From NCBI GenBank assembly GCA_009773805.1, contig WTXA01000002.1, positions 186,001 through 250,000 on the forward strand: a stretch of 64,000 nucleotides of DNA, written 5' to 3'. Each line of letters starts with the position of its first letter. The first letter of the stretch is position 1. Made by a program: the position numbers and the translations under genes. This DNA is from Fusobacteriota bacterium. Lineage in GTDB: Bacteria > Bacillota > TC1. Below the pieces are notes generated by a model that saw nothing but the letters and a program-made list of their open reading frames with translations, searched no databases and was not told the origin of the DNA. Positions 40,840-59,788 of this stretch are shown piece after piece.

Positions 40840-41334
40840 TTATCTATTATCTATTTTTTCAGGATACATATCATGCATATTAAGTCGTTGTTCAGCTACT
40901 TCATACCACTTCGTTCTTTCTTCTCCATAATTACAATATGGATCTATTGAGATGCCTCCTCTTGGGGTGAATTTACCCCAAACTTCAATATATTTGGGTT
41001 TCATAATTTTTATGAGATCTTTCATTATTATATTCATACAATCCTCATGAAAAGCACCATGATTTCTAAAGCTGAATAAATATAGTTTCAATGATTTACT
41101 CTCAACCATCTTTATATTTGGTACATAGGAAATATAAATTGATGCAAAATCTGGTTGTCCTGTAATAGGGCACAAGCTTGTGAATTCAGGAAAATTAAAC
41201 TTCACAAAATAATCATTGTTTTGGTGTTTATTATCAAATGTTTCAAGTATACCCGGATTGTAATTATAGCCATACTTTGTGTTCTGGCTACCTAATAAAG
41301 TAAGGTCTTTAAGATCTTCTGGTTTTTTATTCAT
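40840..41334 (-). CDS. queF: NADPH-dependent 7-cyano-7-deazaguanine reductase QueF
   Basis: 164 aa cytoplasmic enzyme that reduces preQ0 to preQ1 in queuosine synthesis. The unimodular QueF pattern is present: [15 protein letters not shown] (catalytic Cys, ~53), [22 protein letters not shown] (ESKSLK substrate motif) and [14 protein letters not shown]. The start MNKKPEDLK follows AGGAGAATAATT. It overlaps queT by eight bases, and both lie under a preQ1 riboswitch. Confidence 0.95.
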
Positions 41335-41848
41335 AATTATTCTCCTGCTTTTCAACATATGCTTTTTCCAAATATCTTAAAAGTAAAACACCTGCGATAC
41401 TTGGTATAATCTGGCCAATACCTACACTCAACACAAGCATCAAGTATGGAATATTCAATATGAATGAAAGCCATATTGGTACCATTATTGTTGGTATAAT
41501 CAAAATAGGTATAGCAACTAGAAAAATATTTAATTTTCTTAAATAATAACATCCAGCCGCAGTTAACAAGCCTACTATTAAGCCACCAATCATATCTAAT
41601 AAACCTAATCCACCCATAAGTGTATTACTTAAAAAATTAGCAATACCTAACGGTACAATTAAAAAAGGATGAATTGCTGCGACTGCATATATACTTGTCG
41701 CAATTCTTATTTGATATTGACCAAAAGAAAAACTTTGTGTTAAAAATACTACAGTTACATATATTGCTATTACTAATCCTGAAATAGCAATTTTCTTAAC
41801 TTTTGTCATAGATTCTTTTCCTGATTGTTGTTTTACGCTTGTTTTCAT
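41327..41848 (-). CDS. queT: QueT family queuosine precursor transporter
   Basis: 173 aa, five or six helices, an S-component-like vitamin transporter of the QueT (COG4708) family. Characteristic segments: [34 protein letters not shown] and LANTLMGG-like [21 protein letters not shown]. It imports preQ1 or preQ0, which are then used with the help of the downstream queF. A 7-deazaguanine riboswitch with terminator precedes it. Confidence 0.9.
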
Positions 41849-41903
41849 TTTCTACCTCTTTCACTTTAAAATAGAAAAGAACAATTCAAAAATATTCAAA
41901 TAA

Positions 41904-41928
41904 TAAAAAAATGGCGCCTAGGCACCAT
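41904..41928 (-). terminator. Riboswitch-controlled terminator of queT-queF
   Basis: On the minus strand ATGGTGC-CTAG-GCGCCAT followed by seven T. CCTAG in the hairpin can pair with CTAGG at the aptamer 3' end, giving an antiterminator. Confidence 0.85.
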
Positions 41929-41950
41929 AAATTACAGCTATAAATAACTG

Positions 41951-41990
41951 GTCCTAGTTTTATTTATAGACAGGAAGTTTCGAACTGTCT
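41951..41990 (-). promoter_or_regulatory. preQ1-I riboswitch
   Basis: Minus strand GACAG-UUCGAAACUUC-CUGUC followed by the A-rich tail UAUAAAUAAAACUAGGA. The layout copies the Bacillus subtilis queC aptamer (AGAGG-UUC...-CCUCU-AUAAAAAACUAAGGA): P1, the UUC loop, the A-rich tail and the ACUA pseudoknot strand. It sits before queT-queF with an intrinsic terminator between, so high preQ1 should switch the operon off. Confidence 0.75.
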
Positions 41991-42067
41991 TTTATTCCTT
42001 TAAAATATTAACATATACTAATTATTTATACAATCATATTTATCAAACTAAGGAATATTCCTATAAT

Positions 42068-43120
42068 TTATAAAATTTCCTTAAGTGTTTCAATTAGTGT
42101 TAGATTATCCAAATGAGACTTGACTGCAATCCTAAAATAGTTGTTATTAAGTCCTCTGAAATTCTCGCAATTACGAATTAATATTTTTTTATTCAATAGC
42201 AACTCATGAAGATTATTTATATTCTCACATTTAAACAATATAAAATTTGCATCACTCTCATAAACTATAAGTCCAAGATTTCTAAGAGATACAGACAAAT
42301 ATAAACGTTCTTTTATATTTTCAGCTACCGTTTTCTTTAAGTATTCTTCATCCTTTAATACTTCTATGCCACAAAGCTGAGCCGGTGTAGAAACACTCCA
42401 AGGTTGACCTGCCTTGGTGATTCTTTTTAATGTATCCTCATTTGAACTAAGACAATATCCCAATCTTAGGCCAGCCATTGCAAAAAATTTAGTAAATGCT
42501 TTTAAAATTATTAAATTGTCAAAATTGTAAAGTTGATCTTTTAATGAAAATTTATTTGGATTTTCTAAAAAAGAATTAAAGCACTCGTCTATAACCAATA
42601 CGCAATTAATTTCTAAACACTTTTTAGCAATTTTTATTAATAATTCCTTTTCTAATATTTTTCCTGTTGGGTTATTCGGGTTACAAATGAATAGAATATC
42701 AATTTTATCAATTTCTTTTAGTATTTTTTCATCTAAAATAAAGTCCGATTCACTTCTAAGATAATAATAATCTATTTTACAATCAACATTTATAAGAGAT
42801 AATTCATATTCCGAAAATGTAGGGGCCAGTAATAAAGCTCTCTTAGGCCTAAGAGCATAAGATATACGATATATAATATCGGCTGCACCATTTCCACAGA
42901 GTATGTTTTTTTCTGTAATACTTTCAAATTCACTGATTGATTTTTTAAGGTAAGTGCAATTAATATCAGGATATGCAAAATATCCACTTATAGAATTTTT
43001 TAAAATCTTAACTGCCCTTTTAGGCAACCCCATCGGATTAACATTAGAAGAAAAATCTAAAAGATTTTCACCGATTCTGCTAACAGAATAAATATCTCCG
43101 CCATGCTTACTTATATCCAT
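42068..43120 (-). CDS. cobD: L-threonine-O-3-phosphate decarboxylase-like aminotransferase
   Basis: 350 aa PLP enzyme of fold type I, histidinol-phosphate aminotransferase-like. HGGDIYSVSR near the N-terminus and LDFSSNVNPMGLP are typical of CobD. CNPNNPTGK, DECFNSFLEN and the PLP lysine in LKAFTKFFAMAGLRLGY are present. CobD makes the aminopropanol phosphate arm of cobalamin. Its start overlaps cbiB by ten bases and AGGTGG precedes the ATG, so the pair forms one operon. Confidence 0.88.
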   Translation of the reverse strand: MDISKHGGDIYSVSRIGENLLDFSSNVNPMGLPKRAVKILKNSISGYFAYPDINCTYLKKSISEFESITEKNILCGNGAADIIYRISYALRPKRALLLAPTFSEYELSLINVDCKIDYYYLRSESDFILDEKILKEIDKIDILFICNPNNPTGKILEKELLIKIAKKCLEINCVLVIDECFNSFLENPNKFSLKDQLYNFDNLIILKAFTKFFAMAGLRLGYCLSSNEDTLKRITKAGQPWSVSTPAQLCGIEVLKDEEYLKKTVAENIKERLYLSVSLRNLGLIVYESDANFILFKCENINNLHELLLNKKILIRNCENFRGLNNNYFRIAVKSHLDNLTLIETLKEIL

Positions 43121-44058
43121 ATAAACCACCTAATCGCACTGAAAATCAAGGCGCCTAATATAGCTGTTGCATACATTAGTTTATTTGCCAATTTTATATC
43201 TTCTGTTTCGATTTCTTTATTTCTATCTCCAATAGTAAGTTTTTTTACTAGTTTACCAAAATAATACGAATCTCCTGCTAACTGAATATTTAATGCACCG
43301 GCACATACTGATTCTGTTTGTGCAGAATTTGGACTTTTATGATTTTTCCTGTCGCGAATATATATATTAATTGCATTTTTAAAGTCAAGTCGAATAATGA
43401 AGGATCCTATCAACATCAGAAATGCAGCAATTCTTGCCGGGATGAAATTAAGTATATCATCCAGTCTTGCTGCAAATTTGCCAAAATATAAGTAATCTTT
43501 GTTCTTATACCCAATCATTGAATCTAATGTGTTCACGGCCTTATATAAAAACCCAAGTGGTGCACCTCCAATAGCTATGAATAAGAGTGGAGCAATAACA
43601 CCATCAGTTGTATTTTCTGCAATAGTCTCTACTGTTGCTTTTTTTATATCTTTATTATCAAGTTTTTCTGTATCTCTGCCTACTATATAAGATAGATATT
43701 TTCTTGCATTTTTTATATCTTCTTGCTTTAAATATCTATATACCTTCATGCTTTCTACTTTCAATGATTTTGCAGCAATTATTTGGAAGCAAAAATATAA
43801 CTCTATAACAAAATATAAATATATATTAATATTTTTAGCTATATATAATATAGTAAACGGAGCAATAAAACAAAAAACAATAACAAATATACTTAATAAT
43901 ACTCCTCCAAAAAAATCATTTTTAATTAGTTTTCTTATTTTCACTTCGACTTTTGATATCATATTTCCTATAAAACTAATTGGATGTGGTAACCAATTAG
44001 GATCGCCTACTACTATATCTATAATAAAAGCACAAATTATAATTATAGAAATTCTCAT
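43111..44058 (-). CDS. cbiB: Adenosylcobinamide-phosphate synthase CbiB
   Basis: 315 aa membrane enzyme that joins aminopropanol phosphate to adenosylcobyrate. Family patterns: DIVVGDPNWLPHPISFIGNMI (N-terminus), VETIAENTTDGVIAPLLFIAIGGAPLGFLYKAVNTLDSMIGYK (~145-190) and NSAQTESVCAGALNIQLAGDSYYFG. It precedes cobD. No cobalamin riboswitch pattern is visible upstream and other cobalamin genes are not nearby, so the pair may serve salvage. Confidence 0.93.
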   Translation of the reverse strand: MRISIIIICAFIIDIVVGDPNWLPHPISFIGNMISKVEVKIRKLIKNDFFGGVLLSIFVIVFCFIAPFTILYIAKNINIYLYFVIELYFCFQIIAAKSLKVESMKVYRYLKQEDIKNARKYLSYIVGRDTEKLDNKDIKKATVETIAENTTDGVIAPLLFIAIGGAPLGFLYKAVNTLDSMIGYKNKDYLYFGKFAARLDDILNFIPARIAAFLMLIGSFIIRLDFKNAINIYIRDRKNHKSPNSAQTESVCAGALNIQLAGDSYYFGKLVKKLTIGDRNKEIETEDIKLANKLMYATAILGALIFSAIRWFIWI

Positions 44059-44453: not shown

Positions 44454-44804
44454 TTAAAAACTTAATAATTTATCTGTATCCTCGGTCATTTCAGCCAATT
44501 CAAGCATACTGCTTCTATCAGCACCTTTGATCAACATATCTATGCTAAGACCCCTAGCATCCATACAAGATCCTCAAACTTTTACCTTGCCTTTTTTTAC
44601 AATAACACTTTTTAACATACTACCCATATTATAGTAGCCATCTGGTGTCTTTTGATTATTGATTGCATTAACAACCCCATCACCTACTAGTGAAATACTA
44701 ACTTGTGCATCTTCTCTCTTTTGAATAGCCATTGCCAACCTTAGAGCATTATATGCTCTTTCATTGCCATAAGGTCCATCGTTGATAATAAATAGATACT
44801 TCAT
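44454..44804 (-). CDS. DsrE-family selenoprotein (TGA = Sec77)
   Basis: 116 aa small sulfur-relay-type protein of the DsrE/DsrF-like fold: MKYLFIINDGPYGNERAYNA, LRLAMAIQKRED and VSISLVGDGVVNAINNQKTP, then KGKVKV-U-GSCMDARGLSI and ...ELAEMTEDTDKLLSF. The TGA at 44574-44576 falls where relatives have the active Cys (xxCGSCMDARG), giving a UxxC redox pair. The frame stays open for 39 further conserved-looking codons. ATGCTA-GGGGTCT-TAGCAT forms a hairpin whose loop begins 19 bases after TGA, as expected for a bacterial SECIS. It is last in the nifS-arsR-membrane protein operon. Likely carries sulfur or selenium as a per(seleno)sulfide; this is inference. Confidence 0.85.
44536..44576 (-). promoter_or_regulatory. 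bSECIS-like hairpin in the DsrE-family gene
   Basis: Starting at the UGA, a 13-base spacer leads to a 6-bp stem ATGCTA/TAGCAT with a G-rich seven-base loop (GGGGTCT). Distance and loop fit bacterial selenocysteine insertion elements read by SelB. Confidence 0.65.
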
Positions 44805-44822
44805 AATTAACTCACAACCTTT

Positions 44823-45962
44823 CTAATTTTGTTTTACACTTATAGTCTTAAAAAATTTACTAAAGACAATAAAATAAACAATTGTACCAGCCAATATACT
44901 CAAATAATTGAAAATATTTATTGGCCAAAATTCAAAATACAAACCTTGTACGTAAACTCCCAACACTTGAGAGCCAACAAATGCTCAAACCATACCCCAT
45001 TGCGTTGGAGCAAAATCACTTTTAATAAACTTGTTTTTGAAGTAGTCGATTATTAAATACACTACAAAAACACCCCAGGCTATAGTTACAATATATGAAA
45101 AGATCAATACAATAAACGATAACCCCTTAAGTTCAATATTTAAAAATACACCACAAAAGCTAAAAATCCTGTATAAGCTTAATCCAAAAAGACACATTAT
45201 CGGTATAACCAGAAAAAATGATGGGATTATAGAATCTTCCGGTAACTTCCCAGCTTTTATCTGCAAATATACCAGATATATTATCTTAATGACAAATAAT
45301 ATAATACCAATTGAAATTGTGACTAATGATAAAAAGGCTGCCATAGACGCTATCCGGCTATTAATAGACATCGCAGCAATCCCTGAACCAGTCAAACTCA
45401 CCAAGGCAAAAGAAAAAACATCCAACAACCATACAAAGTTAAATTTAGATCTATCAATTTCTTTTGAAAGCCATATTTTCAATGCTTTCATTTCTAAAAT
45501 CAATAATGATACCAATAAAAGACCAAACAATACCATTGAAGGCAGCATATAGCTTTGTAATTTAGAAGATATATCAGAAATAAAAAATCCTAACGATCCC
45601 CAGAATACGTTGGCTGACATTGCTAATGAAGAAATTGGAACAAACAACCAAACATTTTTATATGGGTCACCTATCAAATCATTCATCTCTTTGCCGTTAA
45701 TAATCCATTTAATCAATTTTGCCAGGAAAATGAATGTCAAAACAAAATGGATAATTACAAATAATAACATTATACCAACTAAAATCATATTCTTGGTAAA
45801 TTCAAAAAGCGAAAAACTATTCCACATTATATCTGAAATTACAACTAATCCTTTTTCATGTGGGATAGAGAACTGTAAAAAATTAAAAGCCATCAATGCA
45901 ACTCCACCTGCTGCCAATGATGCTTGAAATAATAAGGGATTGAACTTTAAGTTTATTTTCAT
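44823..45962 (-). CDS. Multi-pass membrane selenoprotein (TGA = Sec326), TsoY-like
   Basis: 379 aa when TGA at 44985-44987 is read as Sec. About nine helices precede the sequence DFAPTQWGMV-U-AFVGSQVLGVYVQGLYFEF, then a last helix (NIFNYLSILAGTIVYFIVFS) and a real TAG. Without readthrough, the protein would lose its last helices. GGCTCTC-AAGTGTT-GGGAGTT can form a SECIS-like hairpin with its loop 17 bases after TGA. The pattern (QWG..C..VG..VLG) resembles TDT/SLAC1-type channel-like proteins. I recall a RefSeq family named TsoY (seleno)protein with this look but cannot check it. It lies 27 bases after arsR and 18 before the DsrE-family gene. Transport or redox handling of a sulfur or selenium species is inferred. 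Confidence 0.82.
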
Positions 45963-45989
45963 ATATTACACCATACTTTCTTTAATATC

Positions 45990-46325
45990 TTATTCCATCA
46001 TTTCTTTAATATCTTTTATTATCTTCATCTGTTTTGTCATCTGTTCGACCATAGCCTCTCTCATCAATATACAAGCCTGTAAAGTCTTTGGATTGCCAAT
46101 GCTATAGTAGATTTTATTGCCTTCTCTTCTGGAATTAACTACACAAGACTCTCTCATCACTGCAAGATGTTGAGAAATATTAGGAACATTTACCTTCATA
46201 GCTGATGCAAGTTCATCAACACACATTTCCTTTTCACCCAACAAGAATATTATTTCAATTCTTTTAGCATTGGCCATAAACTTACAAAAATCTGCATGTA
46301 TTCTATATAATTCTTTATTATCCAT
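45990..46325 (-). CDS. ArsR/SmtB family transcriptional regulator
   Basis: 111 aa winged-helix repressor: HADFCKFMANAKRIEIIFLLGEKEMCVDELASAMKVNVPNISQHLAVMRESCVVNSRREGNKIYYSIG. Cys14 and Cys50 could form a thiol- or persulfide-sensing pair, as in the SqrR/BigR subgroup, rather than a classical metal site (no CxC in the recognition helix). Its place between a cysteine desulfurase and two selenoproteins supports sensing of reactive sulfur; this is inference. A 24-bp palindrome before the operon is its likely operator. Confidence 0.85.
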   Translation of the reverse strand: MDNKELYRIHADFCKFMANAKRIEIIFLLGEKEMCVDELASAMKVNVPNISQHLAVMRESCVVNSRREGNKIYYSIGNPKTLQACILMREAMVEQMTKQMKIIKDIKEMME

Positions 46326-46340
46326 TATTGCTCCTCTATA

Positions 46341-47453
46341 TTACTTGATTATATTAGTCAACTTTTCAACTACAATATCTATTTCTTCTCTAGTAGTATA
46401 TCTACCAAGACTAAATCTAACAGCACCACGTCCAATATCTGCCGATACTCCCATAGCACTAAGCACAGGAGAAATAGTAGTCATTCCTGAATGACATGCT
46501 GAACCTGTAGAGGCAAGAACATCATCAAGCTTATCTAAAATTTCATGTCCATTAAAACCTATAAAGCTAACATTCAAGGTATTAGGAAGTTTTTTATCAG
46601 GATGGCCATTTAAATGAATAATATCCCCGAAGTTTTCAACAAGTCGTTTGTAAAAGTAATCAGTATTTTCCTTAATGACATTATTTCCAAGGTTTATTCT
46701 TGCAATTTCACAAGCCTTACCAAGTCCTACCTCTAGAATTATATTTTCAGTACCTGCTCTTCTGCCCTTTTCATGTCCAGCTCCATGTATCAATGGTTCA
46801 ATACTTATGCCGGTTCTTATATATAGAGCCCCGATGCCTTTAGGTCCATATAGTTTATGACCTGCCACTGTAAGAAAATCTACATTTAGATTCTTAACAT
46901 CAATTGGTACCTTACCTAAAGATTGTGATGCATCGGTATGGAATAAAACTCCATTTTTCTTACATATGTCAGCAATTTCCTCTATAGGTTGTATAGTTCC
47001 TGTTTCGTTATTCGAATGCATGATACTTACAAGTATTGTTTTATCATTAATTAATTCTTCTATATCGGTTGGATTGACCAATCCTAGTTCATCAACCTTT
47101 ACATAACTCACTTCATATCCTAGCTTTTCTAAATATCTGCAAGGATTAATTATAGCCGGATGCTCTATTTTTGAAGTTATGATATGGTTACCTTTCTTCT
47201 TGTATGTATGGGCAACTCCCTTTAATACAGTGTTATTGGATTCACTCCCTCCACTGGTGAATATTATTTCATCAACGGATGCGTTCAACAAATCTGCTAC
47301 TTGGTGTCTGGCTTTCTCAATTTCTCTCTTAGCCTCGATTCCTAATACATGAATACTTGATGGATTTCCGAAATGTCCATATAAGAAGGGGAGCATAGTG
47401 TCTGCTACTTCTTTATCTATTGGAGTTGTGGCATTATAATCTAAATAAATCAT
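46341..47453 (-). CDS. NifS/IscS-type cysteine desulfurase
   Basis: 370 aa PLP enzyme that removes sulfur from cysteine (or selenium from selenocysteine) to form an enzyme persulfide. Patterns: YLDYNATTPIDKEV, GNPSSIH, FTSGGSESNN, SIMHSNNETG, the PLP lysine in VAGHKLYGPKG, GRRAGTENI and the active-site loop STGSACHSG (Cys ~325). First gene of the operon, with TAGGAGG before the ATG. It probably supplies sulfur to the DsrE-family partner rather than to a nearby Fe-S scaffold, since no iscU/nifU is present. Confidence 0.92.
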   Translation of the reverse strand: MIYLDYNATTPIDKEVADTMLPFLYGHFGNPSSIHVLGIEAKREIEKARHQVADLLNASVDEIIFTSGGSESNNTVLKGVAHTYKKKGNHIITSKIEHPAIINPCRYLEKLGYEVSYVKVDELGLVNPTDIEELINDKTILVSIMHSNNETGTIQPIEEIADICKKNGVLFHTDASQSLGKVPIDVKNLNVDFLTVAGHKLYGPKGIGALYIRTGISIEPLIHGAGHEKGRRAGTENIILEVGLGKACEIARINLGNNVIKENTDYFYKRLVENFGDIIHLNGHPDKKLPNTLNVSFIGFNGHEILDKLDDVLASTGSACHSGMTTISPVLSAMGVSADIGRGAVRFSLGRYTTREEIDIVVEKLTNIIK

Positions 47454-47726
47454 TAATTTCCTCCTAAAACATTTTATAGTGATGTATTTGCGTATATACG
47501 CAAATACTAATTAACACAATTATATATAATTTTTAGAAAATATACAACTTCCTATATTATTTTATATCGGCATAATTATAGAAGATAATACTTTAATTCT
47601 TACTAATATACTAAAGAAAAATAATTTTAAAGTAAACGTGGAATTTATGGTATGATAAACATAGACAACAAAAGATGGTTGTTTTATTATGTATAGTAAA
47701 TATGGTATGCAAAAGGAGAAATAATA
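47454..47726. promoter_or_regulatory. Divergent control region of the sulfur operon and DUF302 gene
   Basis: 273 bases. Near the desulfurase start lies the palindrome at 47484-47507; the rest is AT-rich with the plus-strand promoter of the DUF302 gene (TATGGTATGATAAACATAG region, about 47646). One regulator could act on both directions. Confidence 0.55.
47484..47507. promoter_or_regulatory. 24-bp perfect palindrome, likely ArsR operator
   Basis: GTATTTGCGTAT and its exact complement ATACGCAAATAC are joined without a spacer, 31 bases before the desulfurase ribosome-site/start region. On the minus strand the palindrome contains TTGCGT, followed by TATAAA about 19 bases on, so a bound dimer would cover the promoter. 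Length and symmetry fit ArsR/SmtB sites. Confidence 0.7.
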
Positions 47727-48113
47727 ATGAATATAGTTTATGAAAAAAGTACAAATAAAAATCTAAACGATGCAATAAAGTCTTTAGAAATCAATTTAAA
47801 AGAACTTGGTTTCGGAATATTATGGCAACTTAATTTTAAGGATAAACTACAAGAAAAAGGATTAGAATTTAAAGAGGATTTTGTGATACTTGAGGTATGT
47901 AACCCAAAACAAGCAAAAGAAGTATTAGAAAAAAATATTCATATTGGCTATGTACTCCCTTGTAAAATGGTAGTAAGAAGTGAAAATGATAAAATATATA
48001 TTGGCATGACAAGTCCAGAAACTTTAATAGGCTTATTTGAAAGCCCTGAATTAATAGAAGTTGCAAAAAAGGTTGAGGAATCACTTAAGACTTCAATTGA
48101 AGCTTCAATTTAA
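47727..48113 (+). CDS. DUF302 family protein
   Basis: 128 aa soluble protein: VYEKSTNKNLNDAIKSLEINLKELGFGILWQLNFKDKLQEKGLEF ... FVILEVCNPKQAKEVLEKNIHIGYVLPCKMVV ... IYIGMTSPETLIGLF. This is the DUF302 pattern, including the conserved CNPxxAxxxL cysteine. The function is unknown, but DUF302 genes often stand beside sulfur-handling genes. AAAGGAG precedes the ATG; it diverges from the sulfur/selenium operon. Confidence 0.85.
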   Translation: MNIVYEKSTNKNLNDAIKSLEINLKELGFGILWQLNFKDKLQEKGLEFKEDFVILEVCNPKQAKEVLEKNIHIGYVLPCKMVVRSENDKIYIGMTSPETLIGLFESPELIEVAKKVEESLKTSIEASI

Positions 48114-50156: not shown

Positions 50157-51764
50157 CTAACTCATATTGAGAAACAGTTGCAAAATATCTGGATCAAATT
50201 GGGTGCCTGAATTTCTTCTCATTTCTTCAATAGCTTCTTCATTTGTCATCGCTGACCGATATACCCTATCGTTAGTCATAGCATCATACGAATCAGCAAT
50301 AGCCACTATGCGAGATAGAATCGGTATTTCCTCTCCAATTAAACCTTGAGGATATCCTTTACCATCCCATCTTTCATGGTGGCAAAGTATACAATCCGCT
50401 ATAGGTAAAAGCTCAGAAGTTGCTCTTGCAATCCTATAACCAACTTCAGGATGTTTTCTCATTTCGATCCAATCATCATTATTAAGCTTACCAGGCTTTG
50501 ATAAAATTTTAGGACTTACACCCATTTTACCAATATCATGCAAGGTGGATAATAACTCCAAATCATTTAGTTGATCCTTTGTCAGAGACATAGCTTGTCC
50601 TATATCCTTAGATAGTTGTACTATTCTCTCTGCATGTTCTTCAGTTTCTTGGCTTTTCTCAAACATTATTACTTTTATAGAAGCTATTATTGAGCTGTGA
50701 GCACTTTTGCTTTCTAATAACTTCTGCTTATACATTGATTCCTCAGCGGCAATCAATATGTCATCCATTATTTCAGTTTCAAAGTTCTTTGTTGCACATC
50801 CTAAAGAAATACTGGGATAAATTAAGCTATCATTTAATGCATCTACTTCACAAGCATTATGTATGCGTCTACATATTAATTGAGCAGACTTTTCATCTGT
50901 TTTGGGTAGTAAAATTGCAAATTGGTCTTCTCCTATTCTTGAAATTATATCTTCAGCTCTGCAGGAACTTTTTAAAATTCTGGCTATTTCAATAATCATT
51001 TCATCACCCTTGGAGTGTCCAAAGCCTTCATTTATTACTTTCAAACCGTTTATATCACCCATAATAACTGAAATTGGCAACTGTCTTGGAGTATCGAGTC
51101 GTTTTTTTTCCTCTTCAAAGTAACTTCTATTATATAGCCCTGTTAAATAATCGTGATAACTAATAAATGCAATCTCTTCATTTTGCTTTTTCAGTTCTAT
51201 TGTCTTTTGTGCTAATTCACTAATCATATTTATTAATCCGCTTAAAAAATCTAAGTACCTAAATATGGTTTCTTTATTATACACATTACATTCTTCAAGT
51301 GCTTTCATATATTTCACTTTATCAAAGTCCAGCTTTTCTGCTTGTTTGATAAAGAAATCTTTATTAGGTGTTTCAAAAAAGAACTGTCCAATGAATAAAT
51401 TGGCAACGTGCACTCCAGCAATAATGATTGGAGTTGCAATATCTACCATACCATTCTGGCAAACATGAATTGAGTGTTTCTCGTTTTCTATTAGCTGATT
51501 CGCTAAAATACTATCGCTTATGAAGCATCTCTCTGAAGATATTTTGTGTTTTCTATGAAAATCCATGCAAATACTTTTTCCACCCACATCATAAAGTATA
51601 TTTCCTTTATGATTCACTATAGCAGTGGTTAATCCAGTGGCAAAAGAGAAGTTCTCCATGATTCTGGATAGCTTTTCAATTTCCAAGATTTCATTTACAT
51701 CTTTTATGTCTTCTGATTTAAATAAAGATGATTTTTTCAATTGTTTATTATCGTTATTTTCCAA
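50157..51764 (-). CDS. PocR-GGDEF-HD-GYP signalling protein
   Basis: 535 aa cytoplasmic sensor. N-terminal PocR-type ligand domain (about 25-195; cysteines in KSICMDFHRK, SERCFISD and VCQNG), a short coiled coil, GGDEF-like domain (about 205-360) and HD-GYP domain (about 365-535). The cyclase motif reads RIGEDQF instead of RxGGDEF, so synthesis is probably lost. The HD-GYP motifs are intact (STLHDIGKMGV, CHHERWDGKGYPQG, AIADSYDAMTNDRVYR), so it likely hydrolyses c-di-GMP. It starts at TTG after AGAGGAG. It lies just upstream of the tandem riboswitches. Confidence 0.88.
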   Translation of the reverse strand: MENNDNKQLKKSSLFKSEDIKDVNEILEIEKLSRIMENFSFATGLTTAIVNHKGNILYDVGGKSICMDFHRKHKISSERCFISDSILANQLIENEKHSIHVCQNGMVDIATPIIIAGVHVANLFIGQFFFETPNKDFFIKQAEKLDFDKVKYMKALEECNVYNKETIFRYLDFLSGLINMISELAQKTIELKKQNEEIAFISYHDYLTGLYNRSYFEEEKKRLDTPRQLPISVIMGDINGLKVINEGFGHSKGDEMIIEIARILKSSCRAEDIISRIGEDQFAILLPKTDEKSAQLICRRIHNACEVDALNDSLIYPSISLGCATKNFETEIMDDILIAAEESMYKQKLLESKSAHSSIIASIKVIMFEKSQETEEHAERIVQLSKDIGQAMSLTKDQLNDLELLSTLHDIGKMGVSPKILSKPGKLNNDDWIEMRKHPEVGYRIARATSELLPIADCILCHHERWDGKGYPQGLIGEEIPILSRIVAIADSYDAMTNDRVYRSAMTNEEAIEEMRRNSGTQFDPDILQLFLNMS

Positions 51765-51924
51765 ATAAACTCTCCTCTAAACTCAAAAATTCTTGATACC
51801 ATATTTAAAAATACTTTTTTTATCATATTATTTATATACTATACCATTTCTTCACAATATATTATATACATAATATGATAAAAACTAGTTAGTACATTGA
51901 AATTGATATTTTAAAAATAAAAAA

Positions 51925-51940
51925 AGGAGCCGAAGCTCCC
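51925..51940 (-). terminator. Terminator of the SH3-domain remnant
   Basis: AGGGAGC-TTCG-GCTCCT followed by TTTTTTTATTT on the minus strand, directly after the remnant's stop. Confidence 0.85.
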
Positions 51941-51943
51941 TAT

Positions 51944-52063
51944 TTAGTCTTTAACTCTATTAACATATTCTAAATTTATCCAACCTGCACCGCTCTTTAA
52001 TTTACCCCAACCATTCTCTTCAACCACTATAATAGACCTCATTCTTTCGTATTTAATCCCTGA
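51944..52063 (-). pseudogene. 3' fragment of a bacterial SH3-domain gene
   Basis: The minus strand reads YSGIKYERMRSIIVVEENGW then GKLKSGAGWINLEYVNRVKD and stop, the end of an SH3b domain as found on cell-wall hydrolases. The frame is blocked by stops just upstream, so the catalytic part is gone. A functional terminator remains. It lies 150 bases from tRNA-Leu, a usual phage insertion site. Confidence 0.65.
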
Positions 52064-52079
52064 ATATTTTTTCTATTCA

Positions 52080-52178
52080 TATCATTTTCACATACGATTT
52101 GCGGTCGTATGGGATACTCTTTTTATAGCAAGTTAAATCTTGCAAAAACGAGGGTACATTTAGGGTGTCAAAAGCACA
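52080..52178. repeat. Dispersed repeat copy D beside tRNA-Leu
   Basis: TTTTCACATACGATTTGCGG then TCGTATGGGATA resembles an anticodon arm (CATACGA...TCGTATG), followed by an 8-bp hairpin (GCAAGTTAAATCTTGC) and GAGGGTACATTTAGGGTGTC. The elements recur at copies A-C and F. Confidence 0.55.
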
Positions 52179-52214
52179 AAAAAATAGCACCTCAGAAACT
52201 CTGAGATGCCCTAC

Positions 52215-52296
52215 TGGTGCCGAAGGGGGGACTTGAACCCCCACGGTTTCCCGTACGATTTTGAGTCGTATGCGTCTGCCATTCCGCCACTTCGGC
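52215..52296 (-). tRNA. tRNA-Leu (anticodon CAA)
   Basis: Acceptor GCCGAAG/CTTCGGC, D arm GCGGAATGGCAGACGC, anticodon arm TACGA-CTCAAAA-TCGTA, long variable arm CGGGAAACCG, T arm GGGGG-TTCAAGT-CCCCC and an encoded ACCA end. The class II variable arm and the loop CTCAAAA identify Leu reading UUG. The gene's flank carries a hairpin (CTCAGA...TCTGAG) and repeat copy D. Confidence 0.96.
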
Positions 52297-52341
52297 CAAT
52301 ATCTACTTTGTAATCTTACCAAAACCAACAAAAAAAGTCAA

Positions 52342-53211
52342 TCAAATAAACAACCCCAACACAAACCCTACAAACAAAACCAACAATACCAAACAACCAA
52401 CATTACCAGCACCACCACCAACAAAACCCAACACAAACGACCACCAATCAAAACCAGACAAAAAACCAGAAGTAGCCACAGAAGAACTACCACCTACACC
52501 AAAACCCCGACTACCCAACAAACCACCAAAACCCCTAACACCACTACCACTACCGAAACCATTACCCCCACTCACATTACCACCATAACTACTTATCCTC
52601 CCAACACTACGAACACTACCCACATCGTTACTCACACTATCACCCACACAAACAGAACCAAACAACCTAACCACACCCAAAAAGGATGAAATACTAAAAC
52701 TATTCCCCAAAGCCTCCAACCTATCCAAATAATCCATAAACCAAGACTCACCACTAAACACTGACCCAAACAAAGAAAGAACACCACCCCAAAAATCACC
52801 CTTATAAAAAGGACAATAAACCAAACCACAACCATCCATAGAATAAACTATCGACTCAGGACTAATATAGAAAGACGATAGATCAAAAAAATACTCAGAA
52901 CTCACAAAATCAACACGCTCCAATATAGAAACAAAATCATCAACCCCAAAACCACCATCACCCCTGTCTAACCTCTCACCCAAGCTATACCCACCCTCAA
53001 GATCATAAACAAAAACAAAATCCAAATTCTCCCTATAAAAATAAACAGGAAGCAGAAACTCCACACCCCCACCCTTCAACAAATAAGCATCACGACCAAC
53101 CAACTCCCCCCTTCCCCTATAAACCAAACTAAAACCCTCAACACAAAACTCATCCAACACCCTACCAACACCAAAACTAGAACCACCCATACCACTCACA
53201 CTACTACCCAT
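52342..53211 (-). CDS. DUF6382-like protein of a Tad-type pilus cluster
   Basis: 289 aa. N-terminal soluble domain (YRENLDFVFVYDLEGGYSLGERLDRGDGGFGVDDFVSILERV, about 45-100) resembles the DUF6382 domain seen in clostridial Tad loci. A Gly/Ser/Val-rich linker (about 195-255) leads to one C-terminal helix (GCLVLLVLFVGFVLGLFI). The start follows AGGAGG by eight bases and touches the TadE-like stop. The role is unknown; it may link pseudopilins to the assembly machine. Confidence 0.55.
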   Translation of the reverse strand: MGSSVSGMGGSSFGVGRVLDEFCVEGFSLVYRGRGELVGRDAYLLKGGGVEFLLPVYFYRENLDFVFVYDLEGGYSLGERLDRGDGGFGVDDFVSILERVDFVSSEYFFDLSSFYISPESIVYSMDGCGLVYCPFYKGDFWGGVLSLFGSVFSGESWFMDYLDRLEALGNSFSISSFLGVVRLFGSVCVGDSVSNDVGSVRSVGRISSYGGNVSGGNGFGSGSGVRGFGGLLGSRGFGVGGSSSVATSGFLSGFDWWSFVLGFVGGGAGNVGCLVLLVLFVGFVLGLFI

Positions 53212-53636
53212 CACCACAACCTCCTCTCATAAAAATCCACCACCACAACCCGACCAAGAAGCACCACATCAACACCATACTCAACCCTAACAGTCATATA
53301 ACCACCATCAAAATCCGAACTAACCACCAACCTATCACCATCAAGAAAACCACCCTCAAGAAGATAACTCCTAACAAAAGCCCGACTACCCCAACTTGCA
53401 GCAACCTCCACTACATCATCAGCCACACCATCCAACAACAAACCATCAACACTACAAACATAAGCCCCATAACTATCAACCCTCTGCCTAATAAAAGATG
53501 ACACAGAAAAAAAATTAATAAACGAGACAAAAGAGAACAGAAGCACCATAACCATAGGAAACACCACAACCCCCTCAATAACCAAAGAACCCCTCTCCTC
53601 AATTAAAAGACAACGAAACAACCTCCTCAAAAACAA
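53211..53636 (-). CDS. TadE-like pseudopilin
   Basis: About 141 aa. A short cytoplasmic N-terminus (CLLIEERGSLVIEGVVVFP) with the Tad-type GSxxxE pattern leads into one helix (MVMVLLFSFVSFINFF) and a small extracytoplasmic domain. This is the TadE minor pilin design. No ATG is well placed; a TTG at 53636 has GGGG eight bases upstream, but the start is uncertain. It overlaps the end of the TadG-like gene. Confidence 0.6.
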   Translation of the reverse strand: MFLRRLFRCLLIEERGSLVIEGVVVFPMVMVLLFSFVSFINFFSVSSFIRQRVDSYGAYVCSVDGLLLDGVADDVVEVAASWGSRAFVRSYLLEGGFLDGDRLVVSSDFDGGYMTVRVEYGVDVVLLGRVVVVDFYERRLW

Positions 53637-55047
53637 AACAACCACCCCTAATCTCACCACCAAACAACCGAGTCCCCTCAGGCAAAAACTTAAGAAACGT
53701 TAGCCCTAAACTACCCTTAACACTACCCCTAGCACCACAAAAATATGCCCCAGGAAAATCCCTTATAACCTCACCATAAATACCCTTAAGCAAACACTCC
53801 TCACCAGCCAAGAGAGAAAACATCAGAAGATGATCCCTATAAGACAACTTCAAAAACTCCAAAGGATTTGGCGTACCATAAACATTAACCACAGGCACCC
53901 TGGCATCATTAACCCCCACCAAAGACAACACATCAGAAACCCCAGTACCAAGACCCAACACCACACTATACACTAACCTAGACACAAGTTCAGGAGGAGC
54001 CTTAGCATCAAGTACAAAATAACCAACACCATCAACAAAAGTCCTAAACAACAAAATATTAAAGAGCGTACCTATTGTCGAACCATTACCAATAATCCGC
54101 TCAGCTTCACCTATACTACCTCCCACACTCCCACCACTACCAACATCACCAACAACAGACGATAGATTAGAAAACCTCTCCAAAACATACTCCCCCAACA
54201 ACAAATCATCCCGAAGCCCCTCCAAACCAGCACCAAGACGATTCTTCAAACCACCTCCAACCTCCTTAGCCCTAAAAAACAAAAACCCAGGACTTTTCAG
54301 TTCTTTCTCATAACTACCTAACTCACCACCAAAAAGCTCACCCAACTTCTTCCAAGTATCTTCACCAATCTGTTCACTATCGCTAGCTCCATCACTACTA
54401 CCACTACCACCATCAGTATTTGACAAATCCTCAGCCATCACTAAAAGAGACCTATTCTCCCCATACAACTTTTCAATACTAGCATCAAGACCAGCCTCAC
54501 CACCAGCTCGCCTCTCCTCCAAACCCTTAATAACCTCCACATTAGAAGCAACCCTCTCCTGCATCCTCTTAGTAGCCGCCTCCTTACTGCCACCAAAATC
54601 CCCAAAATCAGCACCAAGCTTATCCACCTCCTCCATCGCCGAAAAAATACCATAAACCTGCTTCCCAAGATTAACCAAACCCCTAACCTTCATCTCCTCC
54701 AAAATTTGCTTCTTTAAAATACGAGAATCAGAAAGAGGCTGCTCTAATATTAAGGAGAAGTTTTTCAGAGTTACTCCCTTACCCTTCACATTATTCCTAA
54801 CCATAGAAGAAAAATCCAAACCATACTCCTTACCCTTCAAGGCAAAAAGACCATAACGACCATACAAATCCTTATCATAATCAGCCAAAACACTATCCAC
54901 ACTACTATAAACACCCTCATTAACCACATTCATCGCATACTTAACCCTAACCACATCAAAAAGCACCCCGAAAAAAAGAACCAATACCGGAAATACTATT
55001 GCCATAAACAAAACCAAAGAACCACCCTCATCATCCCACAACCTCAT
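53599..55047 (-). CDS. TadG-like / DUF5702 pilus-associated protein
   Basis: 482 aa. N-terminus MRLWDDEGGSLVLFMAIVFP with one helix, then RVKYAMNVVNEGVYSSVDSVLADYDKDLYGRYGLFAL, which matches DUF5702 (TadG-like) proteins. A long extracytoplasmic region follows with coiled-coil and Gly/Ser-rich parts (about 150-235). GAGGTGG precedes the ATG. Upstream Tad genes (prepilin peptidase, CpaF, TadB/C) are not adjacent. Confidence 0.65.
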   Translation of the reverse strand: MRLWDDEGGSLVLFMAIVFPVLVLFFGVLFDVVRVKYAMNVVNEGVYSSVDSVLADYDKDLYGRYGLFALKGKEYGLDFSSMVRNNVKGKGVTLKNFSLILEQPLSDSRILKKQILEEMKVRGLVNLGKQVYGIFSAMEEVDKLGADFGDFGGSKEAATKRMQERVASNVEVIKGLEERRAGGEAGLDASIEKLYGENRSLLVMAEDLSNTDGGSGSSDGASDSEQIGEDTWKKLGELFGGELGSYEKELKSPGFLFFRAKEVGGGLKNRLGAGLEGLRDDLLLGEYVLERFSNLSSVVGDVGSGGSVGGSIGEAERIIGNGSTIGTLFNILLFRTFVDGVGYFVLDAKAPPELVSRLVYSVVLGLGTGVSDVLSLVGVNDARVPVVNVYGTPNPLEFLKLSYRDHLLMFSLLAGEECLLKGIYGEVIRDFPGAYFCGARGSVKGSLGLTFLKFLPEGTRLFGGEIRGGCFVFEEVVSLSFN

Positions 55048-55153
55048 AAAAAACCACCTCAAAAAAAAATTAGAGAAAAGAACCTAAATTCTTTCCTCTA
55101 ACATATTAATTTATGAAAATATAACCTGAATAATAAAATGATAAAAAATATAA

Positions 55154-55690
55154 CTACATCAAATACTTCAAAACTGTGATAAAAAGAATGTAAATGGTAA
55201 GAGCACAAGTGCTATAAACCATAACCTTCCTAGGAACTTTCTTAATAAGCTTCCGAATTTCAGGATACATCAAAAAAAAGAACAAAAAAGCCAAAGCCCC
55301 CCAACCAAGAGAAGTACTAAGACAAATCCTACCCTCAAAATTAAAAGGCTTATCATAATAATTCCAGGACCTAGGCCTCCCAAACATATCCTCAATATAG
55401 CTTCCAATCAACTCCACAAGAGTCATAAAAGAAGCAGAAACAACAAAAAACAAAACAGGAAACCTACTAAAACGCCCCAAAAAATAGACTACAATAAGAG
55501 CCCCAAATCCGTAAATATGAATAATCGGCAATCCAAACCCAAGAGCACCCCTAATAGTCCACTTCCCAGTCACAAAATAAACATAAGAAGTCTCAATCAA
55601 CAATCCTACAAAACCAAAAATCATAAACTCATACAAAATCCAAGGAAACTTAAACAACAGATAACTTCTATTACCAAGACGTCTCTCCAT
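55154..55690 (-). CDS. CmpB-like putative ABC transporter permease
   Basis: 178 aa with five helices. MIFGFVGLLIETSYVYFVTGKWTIRGALGFGLP, LVELIGSYIEDMFGRPRSWNYYDKPFNFEGRICLSTSLGWG are the hallmarks of PF06541 (CmpB). The function is unknown. It starts nine bases after selD and is probably in its operon. Confidence 0.8.
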   Translation of the reverse strand: MERRLGNRSYLLFKFPWILYEFMIFGFVGLLIETSYVYFVTGKWTIRGALGFGLPIIHIYGFGALIVVYFLGRFSRFPVLFFVVSASFMTLVELIGSYIEDMFGRPRSWNYYDKPFNFEGRICLSTSLGWGALAFLFFFLMYPEIRKLIKKVPRKVMVYSTCALTIYILFITVLKYLM

Positions 55691-55698
55691 AAAAACTC

Positions 55699-56733
55699 CT
55701 AAAACAAAACCAATTTAGAATCAGCTGCCTCCACTACCTTACCAATAACAAAAGCCAACTCACCCGCCTCTTCCATTTGTCTAACATACTCACTAGCATC
55801 CTCTGGAGTAAAAGCAAACACCAAACCACCAGAAGTCTCAGGAGTAACCACAGCCAACTCCATAAAATCATCCACCAAATACAAAACCCTATCCTTCACA
55901 TAATCCCTATTCCTATAGGCACCAGCAGGAATAAGACCCTCCCTGGCAAAAGAAAGAGCACTATCAAAAAACGGCAACTTCCTACTATCCACCTCAAAAG
56001 TAACAGCATCATCACCAACCATCTCCAACAAATGACCAACCAAACCAAAACCAGTAATATCAGTACAACTATGAACACCACCAACAACCTTAGCAACCTC
56101 AGCAGCCTTCCTATTTAAAGCAGCCAAAGACTCAGTCACTTCATGTAACTCATCTTTGCTCACAAGAGACTCATCACCCTTAAAAGCAGTAGTCACAAGA
56201 CCAACACCCAACTTCTTAGTTAGTACCAGAACATCACCAACCTTAGCACCACCATTAGTCCAAATATGTTCAGGATGAACAAAACCAGTCACCGAAGCAC
56301 CATACTTAGGCTCCGAATCCTCAACAGTATGACCACCAAGCAAAGCAACCCCAGCCTCCACTAACTTATCAGCACCACCGCGAAGAATCTCCCTTAAAAT
56401 CATAACATCAAGACAACTAATAGGAAAAGTAACCACATTCATAGCAGTCTTAGGCTCACCACCCATAGCATAAACATCTGATAAACTATTAGCAATCGCA
56501 ATCCTACCAAAATCATAAGGATCATCCACCATAGGAGTAAAAAAATCAACAGTCTGAACCAGAGCCAGCTCATCACTAACCCTATATACACCTGCATCAT
56601 CATAAGTCGAACCAGAAACCAGCACAGCCGGATCCTTAAAACTATTCAAACCAGTCAAAACTTGACTCAAGGTCCCCGGACCTATCTTAGAAGCTCAACC
56701 AGCTGCCTTAACCATCTGAGTTAAACGAACCAT
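55699..56733 (-). CDS. selD: Selenophosphate synthetase SelD, Sec13-containing
   Basis: 344 aa enzyme that makes selenophosphate from selenide and ATP. The true N-terminus is MVRLTQMVKAAG-U-ASKIGPGTLSQVL, with TGA (56695-56697) at the place of the catalytic Cys17/Sec of known SelD. The Lys that follows (ASK) and downstream VQTVDFFTPMVDDPYDFGRIAIANSLSDVYAMGG, GGHTVEDSEPKYGASVTG and TSGGLVFAF are conserved. AGGTC-CGGG-GACCT forms a SECIS-like hairpin 16 bases past TGA. AGGAGG lies seven bases before ATG 56733 (ATG 56736 also possible). Naive calling starts at 56670 and loses the active site. Confidence 0.93.
56660..56697 (-). promoter_or_regulatory. bSECIS-like hairpin in selD
   Basis: After UGA and an 11-base spacer, AGGTC pairs with GACCT around a CGGG loop. 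The GG-containing apical loop at 16 bases fits bacterial SECIS rules. Confidence 0.65.
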
Positions 56734-56746
56734 CATGCCACCTCCT

Positions 56747-58102
56747 TTAATTCTCTAAAAACGCCCTATATCCTAAATAAGTCATATACAAATCAGCCTT
56801 AGAAGCCACCTCAAAAGGAGAATGCATAGACAACAAACCAGTACCCATATCCACAACCTCCATCCCAAGCTGAGACAAATAGGAAGCAATAGTACCACCA
56901 CCACCTAAATCCACCTTACCAAGCTCACCAAACTGATACATAACCTTACCCTTATCCAAAACACCCATAACATAAGACAAATACTCAGCACTAGCATCAT
57001 TAGCATCATACTTACCCTTACTACCTGAATACTTACTTATGATAGGACCAAGCCCCAGTCTTCCTCTATTGTACTTATCGAAAACTCCTTCATAACTTGG
57101 ATCATCTACAGCACTAACATCAGCAGACAAACCCTTAGAATTAAAAAACACCTCTAAAGAAGTAGCTTTCATACCAGACTTACCAATCAAAAGTTCCATC
57201 AAATACTCCAGAACCCTAGACTGAGCACCAGTATCACCGTTACTGCCAATCTCTTCCTTATCAAAAAAACAAGCCAACACATTCGAACTACTAAACTCAC
57301 CCTCAAAGAAACTCTTCATCAAAGAATAAGCACAAATACGATCATCTTGACCATAAGCACCAATCATACTTCTATCAAAACCAATATCCCTAGGCGGAAT
57401 ATTCGGTAAAATTTCCAATTCAGCCCGAAGGAAATCCTCCTCAATCAAACCATACTCCTTATTTAAAAACCCAAGTATAGCCTTCTTAACACTAGGATCC
57501 TTCTCACCTTCAACCAAAGGAATACTTCCGATAAGAACATTCAACTTCTCACCCTCAATAATTTTTCCGCCAGTCTTAGCCATCTGTTCCTGGGCTAAAT
57601 GAGGAAGTAAGTCAGTAATAGTAAAAACAGGATCATTCGCACCCCTACCAATACTTAACTCCAACTTAGAACCATCTTTCCTATAAACAACACCCTCTAA
57701 GCACAAAGGCATAGTAACCCATTGATACTTCTTAATACCACCATAATAGTGGGTCTTAAATAAGGCCATACCCTCTTCTTCATAAATAGGCTGTTGTTTA
57801 AGATCAAGTCTTGGCGCATCAATATGAGAACCAATTAACTTAAGACCCGATTTCAATTCCTCATTAACAACACCCATAAAAAAACTCTTCTGCCTATGAT
57901 TTAAATAGAAACCCTGACCTAACTCCAATTTATCAACACTAGTAATATCCACATAACCCTTATCAATAGACTTAGCTTCCAGTAGAGTAACAATAGCCCT
58001 CTCAGTCATACCACCACTCATAAAGGACTTATAACCTTCAGCAAAATCCATTATTAATTCATTATCTATTTCAGACCAGATATTCTTGTTTACATATTCC
58101 AT
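56747..58102 (-). CDS. M18 family aminopeptidase
   Basis: 451 aa zinc aminopeptidase. Metal and catalytic motifs: LIGSHIDAPRLDLKQQPIYE (~95), FDKEEIGSNGDTGAQSR (~285), SADVSAVDDPSYEG and MHSPFEVASKADLYMTY at the end. Length fits the family, which removes N-terminal residues from peptides in the cytoplasm. AGGAGG precedes the ATG. Its stop is only 13 bases before the selD start, so the two are co-transcribed. Confidence 0.92.
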   Translation of the reverse strand: MEYVNKNIWSEIDNELIMDFAEGYKSFMSGGMTERAIVTLLEAKSIDKGYVDITSVDKLELGQGFYLNHRQKSFFMGVVNEELKSGLKLIGSHIDAPRLDLKQQPIYEEEGMALFKTHYYGGIKKYQWVTMPLCLEGVVYRKDGSKLELSIGRGANDPVFTITDLLPHLAQEQMAKTGGKIIEGEKLNVLIGSIPLVEGEKDPSVKKAILGFLNKEYGLIEEDFLRAELEILPNIPPRDIGFDRSMIGAYGQDDRICAYSLMKSFFEGEFSSSNVLACFFDKEEIGSNGDTGAQSRVLEYLMELLIGKSGMKATSLEVFFNSKGLSADVSAVDDPSYEGVFDKYNRGRLGLGPIISKYSGSKGKYDANDASAEYLSYVMGVLDKGKVMYQFGELGKVDLGGGGTIASYLSQLGMEVVDMGTGLLSMHSPFEVASKADLYMTYLGYRAFLEN

Positions 58103-58816: not shown

Positions 58817-59713
58817 TTAATCCTTTTGCTTTAACATAAAATTCAAGAAAGTCTCACTCAAGGGACTTAATGTCTTTAACTTATTATGAATTAAATAAAT
58901 ATTTCGGCTTAAGTCAAAATCATCAACTTCCACGGCTTTAACACAACCTAAGGCTAAACTATCTCCAGCTACCAAGGATGATACAAAAGCCACTGAATTG
59001 GAATTCTTAACTGCTGTAATCGCTGATCTATTACCACTTAACTCTGTAAAATAGGCAAAATTCTTCAATTTTAGACCCTTTGTCTCCATTTTATCCTCTA
59101 ATACTCTTCTAGAAGCCGAACCCTTTTCTCTAACCACTATAGGATATGCTAGCACATCCTTAATACAAACCTTGTCCAACCTAAGTAATGGATGACCATC
59201 CTTGACAATCATAATAACTTTATCCTTTTTAAAAGGTTTGGATTCGATTCTACTATCATCAACCTTCATACCAACAACACCAATATGAATGTCCTCTGAT
59301 ATCAAACTTTCTACAACTTCATCTGAAGATGTTGTAGTAACCATCACATCAGTAGCCGGATAAGCATCCTTAAAACTACTCATATAGGCTGGCAGAATAT
59401 ATTCACCTGGCACAGTACTTGCACCAACTATTAATTTACCTTTTTCCATACATTTCAATTGTTTCATTTCTTCAATCAGCTGTTCATGTGCCTTGATAAT
59501 TTTTTCTGCATAAACATAGAATTGTTTACCTGCTTCAGTAAGCTTGGTCCCTCTTTCTTTTCTTTCGATTAGTTGTAAATCGATTTCACCTTCAAGATTT
59601 TTAATCTGCCAGCTTATTGCAGGTTGAGTCATAAATAGCTCTTTAGCGGCTATAGTAAAGCTTTTCTTTCTGACAACTGTCACAAAAGCTAACAAATGTT
59701 TATAGTTAATCAT
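58817..59713 (-). CDS. LysR family transcriptional regulator
   Basis: 298 aa. N-terminal HTH (INYKHLLAFVTVVRKKSFTIAAKELFMTQPAISWQIKNLEGEIDLQLIERKERGTKLTEAG) and a periplasmic-binding-protein-like effector domain (GKLIVGASTVPGEYILPAYMSSF). This resembles CysL/selenium-metabolism-linked LysR proteins (GASTVPGEYILP). The start MINYKHLL follows AAGGGGAG. It heads the minus-strand group that leads to selD. Confidence 0.88.
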   Translation of the reverse strand: MINYKHLLAFVTVVRKKSFTIAAKELFMTQPAISWQIKNLEGEIDLQLIERKERGTKLTEAGKQFYVYAEKIIKAHEQLIEEMKQLKCMEKGKLIVGASTVPGEYILPAYMSSFKDAYPATDVMVTTTSSDEVVESLISEDIHIGVVGMKVDDSRIESKPFKKDKVIMIVKDGHPLLRLDKVCIKDVLAYPIVVREKGSASRRVLEDKMETKGLKLKNFAYFTELSGNRSAITAVKNSNSVAFVSSLVAGDSLALGCVKAVEVDDFDLSRNIYLIHNKLKTLSPLSETFLNFMLKQKD

Positions 59714-59788
59714 GTAAAAACTCCCCTTCACCACTAAATTTAATATTAAAACTACCACTAATATAATAGCATATAATAGAAAATAATT

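Follow-up and report, generated by a model that had tools for sequence, protein, structure and literature searches.

TsoY and a DsrE-family selenoprotein are encoded in a predicted ArsR-controlled operon that probably handles selenium

According to a 2026 review, prokaryotes have no known high-affinity transport system specific to selenium (PMC13188914); YedE is a proposed selenium transporter (PMC5322559). The same review cites the TsoY family (NF047643/NF047644; Haft and Tolstoy, 2025), and there Tso stands for a three-selenoprotein operon and TsoY is given without a function (PMC13188914). Here we describe a four-gene operon that includes a TsoY gene, located in the window, that is, the whole stretch of 64,000 nucleotides (nt) analysed (positions 186,001 to 250,000 of contig WTXA01000002.1, assembly GCA_009773805.1, from a Fusobacteriota bacterium placed by GTDB in Bacteria; Bacillota; TC1). 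Two of its proteins are read as selenoproteins, and the operon probably moves or manages selenium itself. The literature searched, outside which the 2025 paper naming TsoY lies, held no account of this operon, its operator or a TsoY-linked SelD clade, and part of what follows may be published. As a preliminary description of this DNA had supposed, all the parts are known, TsoY and the DsrE protein with selenocysteine (Sec) being already named families.

The genes of the operon are the following, with positions counted within the window:
46341-47453, minus strand: cysteine desulfurase, operon gene 1; class-V aminotransferase of the IscS/NifS group, active-site loop STGSACHSG
45990-46325, minus strand: ArsR/SmtB-family repressor of 111 amino acids; NF033788, 79.3 bits (cut-off 55)
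44823-45962, minus strand: TsoY, predicted membrane selenoprotein of 379 amino acids with Sec326 (codon 44985-44987); NF047643
44454-44804, minus strand: DsrE/YchN-family predicted selenoprotein of 116 amino acids with Sec77 (codon 44574-44576); PF02635

The four genes run on the minus strand from 47453 to 44454 with intergenic gaps of 15, 27 and 18 nt; the genes and their order agree with the preliminary description, but its range of 18 to 27 nt for the gaps does not. Judged from the sequence, four co-directional genes with one promoter are a real single operon. A scan for intrinsic terminators returned no more than expected by chance and none on the operon strand. A DUF302 gene (47727-48113, plus strand) was weighed as a possible fifth gene but is not counted in the operon, as it is divergent from it and is found near TsoY in only one other locus (L057, in the numbering of the locus scan described below); this locus, in Bacillus canaveralius, has a copy of the DUF302 protein with 43% identity 5 kb from TsoY. 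The host genome, in four contigs, amounts to 1.68 Mb and is 98.5% complete.

The frame of tsoY is interrupted by TGA at residue 326 and that of the DsrE gene at residue 77, and both continue in frame. When the whole 64 kb was scanned by codon usage for open frames spanning a TGA, only DsrE, TsoY and selD were returned, together with one antisense false positive. In about 30 genomes each of the two sites keeps either Sec or Cys. The residues after each TGA, a lack of conservation in which had been named beforehand as an objection, are conserved across phyla. In TsoY the site is Sec in 31 related loci and in the window, mostly within the motif MVU[AG][FL]VGSQVLG, and the Sec/Cys column is invariant in an alignment of 29 sequences, with Cys present in Trichococcus (L070) and in the distant homologues L034 and L082. 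In DsrE the motif UG[ST]CMDARG was found in the window, where it reads U-G-S-C-M-D-A-R-G, and in eight relatives, and the site is Cys in M. selenatarsenatis (two copies), Anaeromyxobacter and two actinobacterial metagenome-assembled genomes (MAGs); the loci with this Cys form are L060, L062, L069, L074 and L076. In L075 (Desulfohalobiaceae), TsoY is flanked by two short DsrE-like frames, both of which have a TGA in frame at their UG motif.

Each UGA is followed by a hairpin resembling a selenocysteine insertion sequence (SECIS):
44955-44975, minus strand: SECIS-like hairpin GGCUCUCAA-GUG-UUGGGAGUU after the TsoY UGA, with a 9-bp stem and an apical loop beginning with G
44542-44560, minus strand: SECIS-like hairpin AUGCUAGG-GGU-CUUAGCAU after the DsrE UGA, with compensatory stem changes

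Across 31 sequences the TsoY hairpin has the consensus GGCUCYCAA-GUN-UUGGGRG at a constant distance from the UGA, with 96.8% of cells paired. A double change from A-U to G-C, on both sides of the stem, was found in two of these sequences, although, with a stem that is nearly constant, covariation exceeds that of shuffles only modestly. The stem is degraded in the Cys-form TsoY of Trichococcus. In the DsrE hairpin, two stem pairs show double compensatory changes among eight sequences; one of these changes (C-G to A-U, through AGG/CTT instead of CGG/CTG codons) occurs in the window alone. The host genome encodes selA, selB, selD and tRNA-Sec, so that the absence of SelA, SelB or tRNA-Sec, a further objection raised in advance, does not apply; ARAGORN did not find tRNA-Sec near selA, and an Rfam model located it elsewhere in the genome. 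On this comparative evidence both in-frame TGAs are Sec codons and TsoY and DsrE are genuine selenoproteins, as originally proposed, because the Sec/Cys columns are conserved, the hairpins show compensation and the machinery (selA, selB, selD and tRNA-Sec) is present.

TsoY matched NF047643 with 520.9 bits (cut-off 250), aligning over positions 1-366 of the 366 in the profile. Its AlphaFold model, with a predicted local distance difference test score (pLDDT) of 92, had TehA and SLAC1 as its significant PDB matches (TM-score 0.75 on the target and about 12% identity for TehA 3m73), and a weak Pfam SLAC1 match was also detected. No PDB sequence was matched in a profile search with TsoY, and the likeness to TehA/SLAC1 came only from the fold comparison. 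TsoY is accordingly described here as modelled with the TehA/SLAC1 (TDT) anion-channel fold. Sec326 was placed in predicted transmembrane helix 9, which in TehA we take to be the helix bearing the gate phenylalanine, only a lead as regards Sec326. The membrane selenoprotein had been proposed to move or to oxidise a sulfur species; because it belongs to the named TsoY family and has this predicted fold, moving an anion fits better, and oxidation fits less well. Yeast Ssu1, we assume, also belongs to the TehA/SLAC1 superfamily. No TsoY was found on the plasmids searched. Ssu1 is an exporter of selenite, which also induces it (PMC10269739).

The control region upstream of the operon contains two elements:
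47519-47547, minus strand: promoter with -35 TTGTAT, 17-bp spacer and -10 TATAAT, 12 nt before the 22-bp core of the operator
47484-47507, no strand: perfect 24-bp palindrome GTATTTGCGTATATACGCAAATAC, putative ArsR operator, with similar sites in relatives and a single exact copy in the whole genome

The perfect 24-bp palindrome had been described as overlapping the promoter; it is present, but just downstream of the -35/-10 pair and not on it. A similar palindrome was found at the identical 12-nt distance, with the identical 17-bp spacer, in L049, L050 and L051, and a weaker site 5 nt after the -10 in L055. Among the loci scanned, sites with up to five mismatches were located only upstream of TsoY operons of the ArsR type (L049, L050 and, twice, L051). 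The palindrome is a conserved operator-like site, the footprint expected for an autoregulating ArsR, which is predicted to bind it.

The repressor itself is 74-75% identical in L049, L050, L051 and L055, and its Cys14, Cys35 and Cys84 are conserved in close relatives. The As(III)-binding CxC motif is replaced by EMCVDEL, and Cys35 and Cys84 are separated by 49 residues, a pattern that we take to be unlike both the As(III) site and the pair spacing of BigR/SqrR. Scores remained below the cut-offs both for sulfite-sensing BigR (NF040642, 54.5 bits against 155) and for TsoR, the regulator of the Tso operon (NF045707, 37.1 bits against 115); BigR was rejected as an exact name.

For the desulfurase, homology was clear (a PF00266 match, and IscS structures at E values of 1e-105 to 1e-101), whereas the scores for NifS (TIGR03402, 472.8 bits against a cut-off of 530.75) and for the selenocysteine lyase SclA (NF040779, 136 bits against 525) were below the curated cut-offs, and both exact names were rejected. 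The genome has two further desulfurases, with which it shares 44% and 35% identity. DsrE matched PF02635 with 87 bits (cut-off 22.7) and was under the equivalog cut-offs of TusB, TusC and TusD (for TusD, 32.6 against 89.25 bits). It aligned over its full length with E. coli YchN (1jx7), Sec77 facing the first Cys of CKTC.

Relatives were collected by a scan of one genome per species with the query alignment A1, which gave 34 loci, 32 of them callable, with neighbourhoods of 8 kb; a contig scan with a single TsoY sequence as query had found nothing. Two arrangements were apparent. In the ArsR type (the window, L049, L050, L051, L055 and L076), ArsR, desulfurase, DsrE and TsoY are clustered, although their order varies, and a CGGC-domain protein is often present as well. 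L049 and L050 read Sec-form DsrE, ArsR, CGGC-domain protein, desulfurase, TsoY, and L051 is alike, with the CGGC frame partly resolved. The four-gene set recurs, reordered, in Clostridia MAGs; of the recurrence anticipated in the preliminary description, the gene set and the Cys at either site in some genomes were found, but the order was not constant. In the LysR type, LysR adjoins selD, followed by DsrE and/or the desulfurase and then TsoY. The small CGGC-domain protein (PF08821), with several cysteines, was observed near TsoY in L049, L050, L055, L056, L067, L068, L077, L078 and L081; it is not in the window operon and may be a TsoY partner. Elsewhere (L039, L040, L041, L044; also L061, L063 and L065) the genes after TsoY encode a membrane protein resembling nitrate reductase gamma and an iron-sulfur protein of the HdrD/TfrB kind, a possible electron-transfer pair.

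selD was found within 8 kb of TsoY in 19 of the 32 callable loci, LysR likewise in 19/32, and either of them in 20/32. A tested TsoY-linked SelD passed the selD cut-off (323 bits), and a tested TsoY-linked LysR had LysR_Sec_metab as its best match, at 199.8 bits and under the cut-off of 250. Of 399 genomes of the phylum, 260 have selD and 13 have a TsoY above the cut-off, with none among four congeners; several of the 34 loci come from genomes that are also in this set. At least two selD genes were present in 8 of these 13 genomes compared to 12 of the 386 others (p = 1e-8, an optimistic value because the genomes are related). In the SelD tree, whose root and long branches are uncertain, a branch with support 100/98 divides the TsoY-linked SelDs from the remaining ones; several of the latter adjoin SelA-like or YedF-like genes (judged by eye from the first residues). 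From this tree the TsoY-linked SelD is a separate paralogous clade. YedE is anticorrelated with TsoY, being present in 2 of 11 selD-positive genomes with Sec-TsoY compared to 144 of 248 without it (p = 0.012). In the host genome, YedE (TIGR04112) gave no match at E <= 1e-40, and congener G005 has one.

Genes of the TtrA/SrdA kind of molybdoenzyme, NrfD or iron-sulfur proteins flank the cluster in L059 and L078 (Desulfosporosinus), L062 (M. selenatarsenatis SF-1) and L071 (A. arseniciselenatis). These neighbours look selenate-reductase-like by sequence, their identity with srdBCA being only putative; the selenate reductase SrdA of SF-1 belongs to the TtrA lineage (PMC7331816).

The operon probably handles selenium because its relatives so often adjoin a second selenophosphate synthetase. 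On a somewhat probable reading, which is the one we favour, it would be a module for handling selenium under ArsR repression, in which TsoY would serve as channel or transporter and DsrE as carrier. A rise of reactive selenium species, or of a related reactive chalcogen, would cause ArsR to release the operator; the dedicated enzyme of the cysteine desulfurase/selenocysteine lyase type would free selenium (or sulfur) as an enzyme-bound per-selenide, which DsrE would accept on its Sec-x-x-Cys site and pass onward, to SelD in the relatives with an extra selD. TsoY, with its Sec in transmembrane helix 9, would carry a selenium anion (selenite, or a selenide/selenosulfate form) through the membrane and might fill the part that YedE fills in many other selD-bearing bacteria. 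The substrate of TsoY, the direction of transport and the ligand of ArsR we infer. Export or homeostasis of surplus selenium seems slightly more likely than uptake, because a transporter that requires Sec is best produced in times of ample selenium and some of the relatives respire selenate.

Several points weigh against this reading. The transport function of TsoY is a prediction from its model. There is no selD next door in the window operon, L049-L051 or L055, the selD link being that of the LysR-type clusters. The loci are not phylogenetically independent, several coming from one genus, which makes the p-values optimistic. The DsrE and desulfurase families are usually sulfur movers, and some relatives have sulfur-type neighbours: a metallo-beta-lactamase resembling persulfide dioxygenases in L060, a TauE/SafE sulfite exporter in L067, and ArsR-rhodanese fusions. 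Such fusion regulators adjoin TsoY in L060, L066, L069, L070 and L074, often with a Cys-form DsrE.

These last points are what the chief alternative builds on, namely a reactive-sulfur module in which the desulfurase would make persulfide, DsrE would carry sulfane sulfur as DsrE/TusD-like proteins do, TsoY would pass a sulfite, thiosulfate or polysulfide anion, and ArsR would sense persulfide, Sec acting only as a faster thiol. That the SLAC1/TehA superfamily presumably includes the sulfite pump Ssu1 agrees with it as well. We consider this alternative rather doubtful, since it leaves unexplained the separate SelD paralogue and the selenium-type LysR beside TsoY in 19/32 loci, and also the two selD genes and the depletion of YedE in TsoY genomes. 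The preliminary description had left persulfide and selenium side by side, and the neighbourhood points to selenium more than to persulfide, because of the second SelD, LysR_Se, the selenate-reductase-like operons and the YedE anticorrelation.

The linkage to selD and the anticorrelation with YedE would equally suit selenium uptake or supply, with TsoY as a dedicated importer that would supply the desulfurase, DsrE and SelD and would take over the function of YedE, if YedE imports. This is a sub-case of selenium handling with the opposite direction, and its likelihood overlaps with that of the favoured reading; we regard it as unlikely, as an importer requiring Sec would fail when selenium is scarce (though selD often shares that problem), Ssu1 and the proteins of the TehA/SLAC1 kind act as channels or exporters, and some relatives inhabit high selenium. 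Resistance to a metalloid (arsenite, tellurite or mercury) is suggested by the ArsR/SmtB regulator, by the TehA fold and by a TehB/ArsM-like methyltransferase that adjoins the desulfurase in L062 and L071, but it appears very improbable: EMCVDEL stands in place of the CxC that binds As(III), the operons showed no recognisable ars, mer or ter genes, and the selD link would go unexplained.

Outside the operon, two further selenium-related genes were identified in the window:
55699-56736, minus strand: selD, itself a predicted selenoprotein (VKAAGUASK) and the only selD of the genome, on the same strand as the operon and 8 kb upstream
58817-59758, minus strand: selenium-metabolism LysR regulator; NF040786, 261 bits (cut-off 250)

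The selD of the host is of the ordinary kind only. Around it, from 51000 to 57000, several minus-strand genes, selD among them, show a GC skew of about -0.6 and an AT skew of about +0.4, corresponding to unusually G/T-rich coding strands. Downstream of the operon (40840-44058, minus strand) lie QueF and QueT (queuosine) and a CobD/CbiB cobalamin gene.

TsoY, which comes with a set of partners and a regulator, is a concrete candidate for a membrane protein specific to selenium. A membrane channel containing Sec would put this residue to unusual use. The separate SelD clade suggests one SelD for making Sec and another for a different purpose. More tentatively, TsoY may be a dedicated selenium channel or transporter with Sec in a pore helix, and TsoY, Sec-DsrE, the desulfurase and the separate SelD could form a second selenium circuit that replaces YedE/YedF or exists beside it, switched by LysR_Se or ArsR according to the lineage.

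Compared to the Tso operon, the window TsoY shares the family score and Sec at the family site, but is accompanied by a desulfurase, ArsR and Sec-DsrE, with no match to TsoA, TsoB, TsoC or TsoX in the operon. The cluster of YedE, YedF and a desulfurase (PMC5322559) has like parts, namely a membrane protein, a DsrE-like domain with CGxC (UGSC in the window), an enzyme of the Sec-lyase type, selD and LysR_Se; in contrast, the membrane protein of the window has a predicted TehA/SLAC1 fold and not that of YeeE/YedE, its DsrE is joined to no SirA/TusA domain, and control would be exerted by an ArsR that has an operator of its own. With TehA/SLAC1 channels and Ssu1, TsoY shares the predicted fold (3m73, weak Pfam SLAC1), but differs from them by its low identity, by the invariant Sec/Cys in transmembrane helix 9 and by its selenium-gene context. 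Finally, the window DsrE matches E. coli YchN and DsrE-TusD proteins over its full length, but has Sec for Cys and lies under the TusB/TusC/TusD cut-offs.

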